Positions 29,999 to 45,016 of a stretch of 64,000 nt of DNA are shown here, in pieces. A program made the position numbers and the translations under genes. Source of the stretch: Kangiella sediminilitoris (GTDB taxonomy: Bacteria; Pseudomonadota; Gammaproteobacteria; Enterobacterales; Kangiellaceae); assembly GCF_001708405.1 (NCBI RefSeq), contig NZ_CP012418.1:186001-250000 (forward strand). The letters are read 5' to 3'. Each line of letters begins with the position of its first letter. Position 1 is the first letter of the stretch. The notes below the pieces were generated by a model. The model was not told the origin of the DNA. It saw only the letters and a list, made by a program, of their open reading frames with translations, and ran no database searches.

Positions 29999-30769
29999 AT
30001 GTACAAACGTATAAAACAATATTGCCTGTTAATGGCAACCTGTTCTCTTATTTTCTTATTCTCCTCACAAGCATTTTCAGCGGAAGAGAAACCAGCTGCT
30101 ATGGCCGAGATGTGGCATTTTGTCATCGACCCTGCTGATGGTCAGGCTTTTGAAAAAGCTTTTAAAGAGCATGTTGAGTTCAGGAAAAATAATGGGGATA
30201 CACGTGACTGGTGGGTTTACACGCCACACACGGGTGTATTAGGACGGGACTATTATGTACGCCACTGTTGCTTTAAATGGGGACAGCACCAAAAGTATGT
30301 GGACATGGAAGGGATGGATAAGCTATCTCAGGATTGGTATGACGGACCTGCTAAATATGTGAAAAAGACAAAGCACTTTTACTCTTGGGTTGATCGTGAA
30401 AACAATCACTGGCCAAAGGATACAAAAAGTAACTTTTTAAGGTTAGCTCACTATAAGCTCAAAGTAGATTCAGATATGGGGCCTGTGGTGAAAGAAATTT
30501 CTGACCTTGCTAAAAAAATTGGGTGGAAGCGCGCCTGGGGCTGGAGTTATGAAAATAATATGGATGGTACCTATCTAACTTTAGCTATGCCAAGTGCGGA
30601 CTTTGCTGGATTTGAATCGCCTAATCCTAATTTCGAAGAAGCTGCAATAAAAGAAATAGGTGAAGAAAAGTATAAAAACCTATTTGATCGATTTGACTCC
30701 AATGTCGAAAGTCGGCATTTCAGGATCATGCGATACAGACCTGGTCTGTCACTGATTCGTGAGCAGTAA
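29999..30769 (+). CDS. Exported protein with two related alpha/beta (dimeric-barrel-like) repeats
   Basis: A 256-aa protein with a signal peptide (about residues 1-28, ending in AFSA) and a strong AAGGAG ribosome-binding site. Two parts appear related: residues about 36-130 (EMWHFVIDPADGQAFEKAFKEHVEFRK ... YVRHCCFKW) and 145-250 (LAHYKLKVDSDMGPVVKEISDLAKKIGWKR ... TYLTLAMPSADFAGFES). Each has the beta-alpha-beta-beta pattern of the ABM/NIPSNAP-like dimeric alpha/beta barrel. The family cannot be named with confidence. It is a single gene with its own upstream palindrome; the role is unknown. Confidence 0.6.
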   Translation: MYKRIKQYCLLMATCSLIFLFSSQAFSAEEKPAAMAEMWHFVIDPADGQAFEKAFKEHVEFRKNNGDTRDWWVYTPHTGVLGRDYYVRHCCFKWGQHQKYVDMEGMDKLSQDWYDGPAKYVKKTKHFYSWVDRENNHWPKDTKSNFLRLAHYKLKVDSDMGPVVKEISDLAKKIGWKRAWGWSYENNMDGTYLTLAMPSADFAGFESPNPNFEEAAIKEIGEEKYKNLFDRFDSNVESRHFRIMRYRPGLSLIREQ

Positions 30770-43708: not shown

Positions 43709-44512
43709 ATGAGTAAAACAAAAGTAATTATTAATGCTGCTACTGGTCGTATGGGGAAAGAGCTTCTGAAGGCAGCCATCGACGATCGAGGAGCTGAGTT
43801 GATATCGGCGATAGCAAGAGCCGGGCATCCTTTGGTTGGAACGGATATTGCTATTTTAACTGGCAGCGAACCGATAGGAGTGGTAGTTGATGACGATCTT
43901 CATAAAGCTTTATCGAAAAAAGGTGTCGTGATTGATTTTAGTCTTCCGGACTATTCAATCGAGTGCCTGAATCAGGCTGTGCCAGCTAAGAGTCCGATGG
44001 TAATTGGAACGACAGGTTATAGTCAGGAGCAATTAGACCAGATCGAGAAGGCTTCAAAATATATCCCAATTGTTCTTGCAGCAAATTACTCGGTTGGTGT
44101 AAATAGTTTAATCGGTCTGGTAAAGCAGGCGACGAGGCTACTCGGCGATAAGGCTGACGTAGAAATTTTTGAAGCGCACCATAAGCATAAAAAGGATGCG
44201 CCATCAGGGACTGCTTTAGCCTTGGGTGAAGCGGTTGCTAAAGAGAGGGGTGTTAACTTGTCAGATGTTGCCGAGTGGACAAGGTATGGCGAAGCTCCAA
44301 GACAGAAAGGCGATATAGGCTTTTCCGTAATGCGAGCAGGTGATATTGTCGGCACTCATGATGTGGTATTCGCCCTCAATGGAGAAATGGTCACAATACG
44401 CCACGAGGCTCAGTCCAGACAATGCTTTGCCAGTGGAGCTGTGACAGCTGCACATTGGGTAAAAAGTCAAAAGCCTGGTCTCTACGATATGCAGGATGTG
44501 CTTGGATTGTGA
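43709..44512 (+). CDS. dapB: 4-hydroxy-tetrahydrodipicolinate reductase
   Basis: A 267-aa enzyme of lysine/diaminopimelate synthesis (E. coli 273 aa). The dinucleotide-binding loop is near the N-terminus (INAATGRMGKELLKA), VVIDFSLPDYSIECL and GTTGYSQEQLD follow, and the active site is EAHHKHKKDAPSGTAL. dapB next to carA is a conserved gammaproteobacterial neighbourhood; here the two are separated by 557 bp that hold the candidate small RNA. Confidence 0.96.
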   Translation: MSKTKVIINAATGRMGKELLKAAIDDRGAELISAIARAGHPLVGTDIAILTGSEPIGVVVDDDLHKALSKKGVVIDFSLPDYSIECLNQAVPAKSPMVIGTTGYSQEQLDQIEKASKYIPIVLAANYSVGVNSLIGLVKQATRLLGDKADVEIFEAHHKHKKDAPSGTALALGEAVAKERGVNLSDVAEWTRYGEAPRQKGDIGFSVMRAGDIVGTHDVVFALNGEMVTIRHEAQSRQCFASGAVTAAHWVKSQKPGLYDMQDVLGL

Positions 44513-44649
44513 GCTTTGATTAGGAATCGAGGTCAGAGTTTGAGAGATTCGCCATAAAGCTTGTGCGAGATCTCTCAAAATACTGTAATCCACAGCTAAA
44601 TATGACCGCAGATATTAGTGTTTTTAGTCTATAAAAAATAACCAACCTA

Positions 44650-44679
44650 TTGTTTTAATGGGGTTTTGTGAGTTAATAC
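44650..44679 (+). promoter_or_regulatory. Candidate sigma70 promoter of the small RNA
   Basis: TTGTTT (44650-44655) and TTAATA (44673-44678) are separated by 17 bp; TAATAC one base further is an alternative -10. Transcription would start near 44686, immediately before the first hairpin of the RNA. The stretch between dapB and here (44513-44649) shows nothing else. Confidence 0.5.
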
Positions 44680-44685
44680 TTTGTG

Positions 44686-44866
44686 GTGTTAAGCACACAA
44701 TGTGCTTGCTAAACCACAGCAAAGGAGTAGATTAAAAGTTGTGCAAGGGACGCACACAAGGAAAACTAGCCGAGGGACTTGGTGAAACAAGGAAGTAGCA
44801 GGGAGCACGTTAATTAGGGCATGAGGCCACTCGAAAATGGGCGGGATTACCGCCCTTTTTCTTTTT
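44686..44866 (+). ncRNA. Candidate CsrB/RsmZ-type CsrA-sequestering small RNA
   Basis: A roughly 180-nt untranslated transcript between dapB and carA. It starts with a strong hairpin (AAGCACA 44691-44697 with TGTGCTT 44701-44707, extended by TGTGGT/ACCACA). Then follow GGA motifs at 44724, 44748, 44760, 44775, 44791 and 44802, and a seventh in the terminator loop. Two are in hairpin loops: TGTGC-AAGGGAC-GCACA (44742-44758) and CCGAG-GGA-CTTGG (44770-44782). GGA in loops is the CsrA recognition pattern. The RNA ends in a textbook terminator. The motif density is several times that expected by chance. No primary-sequence family match could be tested, and a leader of carA is the alternative. Confidence 0.55.
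44839..44866 (+). terminator. Intrinsic terminator of the small RNA
   Basis: GGGCGG (44839-44844) pairs with CCGCCC (44850-44855) around GATTA, followed by TTTTTCTTTTT (44856-44866). It lies about 200 bp before carA. Confidence 0.9.
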
Positions 44867-45016
44867 ATACCTACCGTTTTGTTTTTTCAGCAAAATATTT
44901 TTAAGAATGCGAAGCTAAAATGATGTCCGCAAAGCAACTCTTCGTGGACATGAATTTAGTGATCCCTTACAATACACGGAATTTGCCAAATTTTTGTCTA
45001 TCTTGTAAAAAATGTG

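Follow-up and report, generated by a model that had tools for sequence, protein, structure and literature searches.

A conserved small RNA gene between dapB and carA of Kangiella very probably titrates the global regulator CsrA

Introduction

RsmZ RNAs have a GGA-bearing 5' hairpin and a terminator. The covariance model for RsmZ and PrrB of Pseudomonas is 133 positions long. CsrB has 369 nt and 22 GGA. In Escherichia coli and Salmonella, csrB and csrC stand out by their UvrY-type boxes as the strongest targets, according to the account in PMC4682653, which also describes a further half-box in csrB, 5 bp after the inverted repeat, and FliW and BarA-UvrY as mutually exclusive. Marine gammaproteobacterial Csr RNAs are represented by Pf1, Pf2 and Pf3 of Pseudoalteromonas fuliginea, which were likewise recognized by their GGA, promoter and terminator. 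They carry 25, 21 and 9 GGA, respectively, Pf2 and Pf3 bound CsrA in gel shifts, and neither dapB nor carA appears in the main text on them (PMC11882849). For Kangiella with CsrA or small RNA, the literature matches listed were incidental by title and included no Csr work.

We analysed a window of 64,000 nucleotides (C1:186001-250000) of a 2.5-Mb Kangiella-type genome. Among the matches listed for its CarA protein, the nearest named relatives belong to Kangiella, with 84% identity. The gap between dapB and carA holds a conserved small RNA gene whose product very probably titrates the global regulator CsrA. An initial annotation of this DNA had proposed a CsrB/RsmZ-type RNA here, a reading now supported by paired UvrY/GacA-type boxes, by the cognate UvrY and BarA and by a second GGA-rich RNA to which nothing but the box had led.

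Results

Gene boundaries and conservation in Kangiella

In the window, dapB (43709-44512) and carA (from 45070) bound a gap of 557 bp. The GGA triplets, the two named hairpins and the terminator first described in this gap are all present (Table 1).

Table 1. Predicted features of the dapB-carA gap (positions in the window)
Feature	Position	Strand	Evidence
Box A, csrC-type, UvrY/GacA-like (TTTGAGAGATTCGCCATA)	44539..44556	+	13/18 vs Salmonella csrC box, ties best of 200 shuffles
Box B, UvrY/GacA-like inverted repeat of csrB type (TGTGCGAGATCTCTCAAA), centred at ~-170	44562..44579	+	15/18 vs E. coli csrB box (200 shuffles reached 13)
IHF-like site (CAACCTATTGTTT)	44643..44655	+	one mismatch to consensus; weak evidence
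-35 hexamer TTGCTA	44706..44711	+	TTG invariant in 19/19 aligned sequences
-10 hexamer TAGATT	44728..44733	+	TARAKT in 19/19, always 19 nt after TTG
Predicted small RNA, ~123 nt	44740..44863, ends approximate	+	promoter-to-terminator block conserved in 19 genomes; 5' end inferred from -10
Hairpin 1, TGTGC-AAGGGAC-GCACA, loop GGA 1 (44748)	44740..44756	+	98.9% of cells paired
GGA 2 (AAGGAA, linker)	44760..44762	+	GGA here in all 19 sequences; a few A1 rows misaligned
Hairpin 2 (GCCGAGGGACTTGGT), GGA 3 (44775)	44769..44783	+	all cells paired; double-sided change in one pair
GGA 4 (CAAGGAAGT)	44791..44793	+	invariant columns
Two-pair mini hairpin GC-AGGGA-GC, GGA 5 (44802)	44798..44806	+	pairs invariant, so without covariation evidence
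Hairpin GGC-ATGAG-GCC, no GGA	44818..44828	+	all cells paired; a single compensatory change, G-C to A-U
Intrinsic terminator	44839..44865 (stem 44839-44855, then T-rich tail)	+	terminator scan; stem kept in 19/19

A DNA search with 44660-44870 gave a match in 19 of the 20 same-genus genomes, the source genome included; the sole miss was G022, which is 55% complete. All 19 loci have carA downstream. In 18 of them dapB precedes the RNA, and the remaining locus begins near a contig end. The 19 sequences make up alignment A1, whose block runs from just past the -10 hexamer through the terminator.

A fixed-consensus promoter scan did not list the promoter at 44706-44733, which was called from its conservation. 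Based on the conserved -10 hexamer at 44728-44733, the RNA would start near 44740, at the base of hairpin 1, so the GGA at 44724 would be promoter DNA, not transcribed from this promoter. The 5' end and the length of about 180 nt initially given to the RNA were misplaced; it is likely to have ~123 nt and to begin at ~44740. A 5' hairpin at 44685-44718 that had been counted as part of the RNA was rejected as well: it differs in relatives, overlaps the conserved -35 hexamer and belongs to the promoter. At the other end, two sequences have A-U in place of G-C at one pair of the terminator stem. Judged by sequence and conservation, this is a free-standing gene with its own promoter and terminator.

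GGA motifs and RNA structure

The GGA triplets are found at 44724, 44748, 44760, 44775, 44791 and 44802, and at 44844 in the terminator loop. All of those reported initially, six plus the one in the loop, are present, but the first is promoter DNA and the terminator-loop GGA, found in seven of the 19 sequences, was rejected as a conserved site. The body of the RNA contains exactly five GGA in every sequence of A1, with five ANGGA in 18 of them and four in one. Several conserved GGA, some of them in loops or single strands, as seen here, are a mark of Csr/Rsm RNAs.

The 181 nt first delimited contain seven GGA against a mean of 4.1 in dinucleotide shuffles (p=0.048; p=0.13 with mononucleotide shuffles), and the likely 124-nt transcript contains six against 4.2 (p=0.17). 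Window-wide averages per 124 nt are 1.6 on the plus strand and 1.1 on the minus strand. The initial estimate of about two GGA expected by chance fits the window average but fails for a stretch this rich in G. For such a composition the GGA count of the transcript is within chance, and we rejected it as proof on its own. The ANGGA motif is more distinctive: the transcript has five copies, whereas the window averages 0.45 per 124 nt. This density is reached at 86 of ~63,900 start positions on the plus strand and at none on the minus strand. At least one other place in the window, a plus-strand stretch starting at 30297 that may be coding, also has five ANGGA.

Of 200 shuffles of 44680-44866, 199 fold less stably than the native sequence (z -2.94), but this stretch takes in both the promoter hairpin and the terminator. 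In hairpin 1, one pair is changed on both sides, from G-C to A-U, in two sequences, and the mean unpaired probability of GGA 1 is at least 0.76 in all 19. Hairpin 2 has a stem of three to four pairs common to the relatives. Across the GGA bases the mean unpaired probability is 0.69, versus 0.49 for other bases of the body, and the predicted folds place between zero and three GGA per sequence in hairpin loops. According to these models, GGA 1 alone has a firm place in a hairpin loop, and the loop placement of the others is weak.

In the consensus structure of A1, 99.3% of the cells are paired. Four of the 24 pairs are changed on both sides, which none of 500 shuffles reached (slid controls gave 0 or 1); as these changes amount to six cells, the structure comes from the same alignment and GGA 2 is misplaced in a few rows, we regard the covariation as support, not proof. 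The comparison of relatives proposed with the initial annotation has thus come out in its favour, with five GGA and the hairpins kept and compensatory changes in four pairs.

Upstream boxes and protein partners

To compare positions, +1 was set about seven bases after the -10 hexamer in the 18 loci with enough upstream DNA. In the window, box A is near -193 and box B near -170, 23 bp apart. By best match, 15 of these loci have the centre of the csrB-type box between -167.5 and -170.5, and 17 have that of the csrC-type box between -190.5 and -193.5; both are in place with the 23-bp step in 14. Two loci, L096 and L101, have a csrC-type box identical to that of Salmonella csrC (18/18). Taken singly, only four csrB-type and eight csrC-type boxes among the 18 loci score above the best of 200 shuffles. 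As a control, the 250 nt beyond the terminator reached at most 13 for the csrB box, a value seen in the window, and 12 for the csrC box. The constant position of the boxes is a stronger argument than the scores of single boxes. The consensus for IHF is YAANNNNTTGATW; it occurs exactly at -96/-97 in four of 18 relatives and imperfectly in the window.

The same script placed the E. coli csrB box at -182.5, which is also its published position in the account of PMC4682653. By simple arithmetic, the csrB repeat and the half-box that follows it are spaced by the same 23-bp step. The dapB-carA gene shares with CsrB/CsrC of E. coli and Salmonella the type of UvrY box and a similar distance, and with csrB also this step (PMC4682653).

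The genome encodes CsrA, and the initial concern that a csrA gene might be absent was not borne out. Aligned over 58 residues, one of its copies has 86% identity to E. coli CsrA. csrA is present as a tandem duplicate about 500 bp apart on the minus strand (C1:1322444-1322599 and 1322945-1323100), with differing protein tails; G021 also has two copies, and the other 18 same-genus genomes have one. CsrA was found in 39 of 40 family genomes, the miss being G015, which is 73% complete and carries RNAs of this type. A UvrY ortholog (55% to E. coli) is encoded before a frame recognized as uvrC-like from its sequence and location, an order also found in E. coli, and the BarA counterpart shows 39% identity over residues 1-910 of 918. 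A far-upstream UvrY/GacA-type box in a genome with UvrY and BarA, another mark of Csr/Rsm RNAs, thus appears to be present. No FliW was found in the 40 family genomes, and two of 14 controls gave a match as they should.

A second predicted RNA identified by its box

The genome contains two exact copies of the box core TGTNNGAGATCTCNCA and none of its reversed control. One site belongs to the dapB-carA gene; the other is at C1:888102-888119. About 180 nt beyond the perfect box at the latter lies a second GGA-rich RNA (~C1:888290-888440; L148:1190-1345) with eight GGA per 130 nt, preceded by a TAAAGT hexamer and followed by a terminator-like hairpin. Its neighbours are a gene for an NAD-kinase-domain protein and one for a flavodoxin-fold protein. 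In sequence it differs from the dapB-carA RNA, with which it shares little but GGA-richness. The DNA of this locus has a match in 18 of the 20 same-genus genomes, over at least 50 bases in 14 and over only 25 bases at the 3' end in four. A one-mismatch box at C1:135229 was discarded; by eye it looks coding, with no GGA-rich stretch in the sequence read.

We extended the search to the family, where the perfect 18-mer box was present in 21 of the 40 genomes and the control in none. These loci were counted as one per genome, leaving two further sites in G011 outside the count; the imperfect dapB-carA box is not among them. Nineteen of the 21 boxes are followed within 420 nt, on one side only, by at least four ANGGA and seven GGA per 130 nt. 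Fourteen of the 21 loci are in Kangiella and mostly represent the orthologous second RNA gene, and are not independent. Outside Kangiella, five of the seven loci have an RNA and two do not: at those of G004 and G011:C146, nothing GGA-rich lies within 1.2 kb.

These data bear on whether the dapB-carA RNA is a small RNA of another kind, for instance a base-pairing one, in which the GGA would be incidental. The modest GGA count for its composition is compatible with that, and GGAAGT.GCA.GGAGCA, among the invariant stretches that extend beyond the GGA, could be a pairing site. We nevertheless consider it improbable, given the five GGA in all 19 sequences and a second genomic box that led to an RNA with little else in common than GGA-richness. 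UvrY-type boxes at a fixed distance, the mark of csrB and csrC in E. coli and Salmonella as PMC4682653 presents it, also argue against it.

Related RNAs beyond the genus and their genomic position

Outside Kangiella, one comparable RNA is found between dapB and carA in Pleionea (G014). G015 has two tandem Csr-type RNAs after dapB, each behind a box-like sequence (G015:C123; L151:1100-1240 and 1554-1684), with ten and seven GGA; carA follows ~4.2 kb beyond them. Six genomes of other genera (G001, G006 and G010-G013) have GGA-rich RNAs with five to eight GGA in the match, and no dapB or carA was present in the ~3 kb around them. By eye, boxes precede the RNAs in five of these six genomes. Two similar GGA-rich copies were seen by eye in succession in G011:C280 (L153), and a box precedes the first of the tandem copies in G011 (by eye). 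Among the covariance-model matches listed, those in G003, G007, G026 and G037 were taken as false: they contain zero to two GGA and by eye correspond to ends of reading frames or bare terminators.

This distribution informs two further explanations. A cis-acting leader or attenuator of carAB would fit the location of the RNA upstream of carA and in the same direction in all 19 loci. Its terminator, however, is followed by a promoter-like site (44945-44973, a simple consensus match) before carA; in G021 a reading frame intervenes between RNA and carA (gap 1563), in G015 carA is kilobases away, and the comparable RNAs of the six other-genus genomes have neither gene in the ~3 kb around them. The RNA is thus not tied to carA, which answers the initial caveat that it might simply read through as the carA leader, and we regard that explanation as highly improbable. 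Even less credible is a processed 3' end of the dapB mRNA, despite dapB being directly upstream in all 18 Kangiella loci that reach that far and in G015 and G014. Such an origin does not agree with a conserved promoter and far-upstream boxes, with the GC-rich hairpin seen by eye between dapB and the RNA in L090-L093, or with comparable RNAs of the family having no dapB in the ~3 kb around them.

We also surveyed the gap itself in 80 carA loci among the matches listed, 60 of which have dapB upstream. Four of these 60 gaps have at least five ANGGA per 130 nt: L003 and L004 (Kangiella), L010 (Pleionea) and L038, among the loci listed. L003, L004 and L010 appear identical to records G027, G016 and G014 and were not double-counted in the 19. 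L038, from an unclassified gammaproteobacterium, has a 622-bp gap with five ANGGA and seven GGA per 130 nt. The 2.2-kb gap of L006, which has four ANGGA and looks coding, was left uncounted. Among the loci listed, 48 of the other 56 gaps measure 147-318 bp, and all 14 gaps measured in Pseudoalteromonas have 182-185 bp and no GGA cluster. With a GGA-rich insert in four of 60 gaps, the dapB-carA site looks like a lineage-specific home for the RNA gene.

Comparison with Rfam families

The Rfam check proposed at the outset did not recognize the RNA, as no match reached a gathering threshold in the window or in 11 related loci; with the same tool, E. coli csrB, the positive control, scored 380.4 bits. 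The PrrB_RsmZ model (RF00166) gave 19.3 bits against a cut-off of 44, with an E value of 0.03 in a search of 581 bases. This match covers the whole model in one piece, from 44740 to 44863, and the two have in common their length class, the GGA-bearing 5' hairpin and the terminator. The 71-bit cut-off of CsrB (RF00018) was not reached in the window. The search that gave the PrrB_RsmZ match set aside one lower-scoring match of the same clan. The second RNA scored 17.2 bits with PrrB_RsmZ (cut-off 44). Elsewhere in the genome, C1:1948381 gave a weak covariance match (17.8 bits, E 0.05).

With ~123 nt and five GGA, the dapB-carA RNA is far smaller than CsrB, and it also has fewer GGA than Pf1, Pf2 and Pf3 as given in PMC11882849. 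It appears to resemble RsmZ and CsrB in every genomic sign, yet falls outside both Rfam families as they are modelled.

Discussion

Our preferred explanation of the dapB-carA element is a CsrB/RsmZ-type small RNA gene whose product would titrate CsrA, to which we assign a probability of roughly nine in ten. Conservation carries the case for an RNA of the Csr type, together with the boxes and where they lie, the genes for the partners and the second locus. The conserved gene body, promoter, terminator and boxes were established computationally, as was the presence of csrA, uvrY and barA.

From these we infer transcription, binding of UvrY and CsrA and an effect on CsrA targets. BarA would sense a signal and phosphorylate UvrY, which would bind the two boxes ~170 and ~193 bp upstream, with a possible contribution of IHF through DNA bending. 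UvrY would then activate the promoter at 44706-44733, giving an RNA of ~123 nt that ends at its own terminator. The five conserved GGA might bind a few CsrA dimers and so keep them off mRNAs. The first has a firm hairpin loop at the 5' end, and the other four lie in weak hairpins or single-stranded stretches. The second RNA (~C1:888290-888440), behind the same kind of box, may act in parallel.

More broadly, the Kangiellaceae may have their own Csr system, comprising a short RNA with five GGA in a widened dapB-carA gap and a second RNA of different sequence, both behind UvrY-type boxes. The tandem csrC-type and csrB-type boxes of the dapB-carA gene, with a fixed step of 23 bp (about two helical turns) that is also found in E. 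coli csrB, could be an ancestral enhancer unit behind which RNAs arise, duplicate, as in G015 and G011, and move. We hold the chances for and against this scenario to be about even.

Two RNAs in one genome that score below the Rfam cut-offs indicate that Csr RNAs diverge fast. The upstream box led to the second of them without a model, which suggests a simple route to Csr RNAs in unstudied Gammaproteobacteria. Kangiella, for its part, gains a defined and testable global regulatory circuit.
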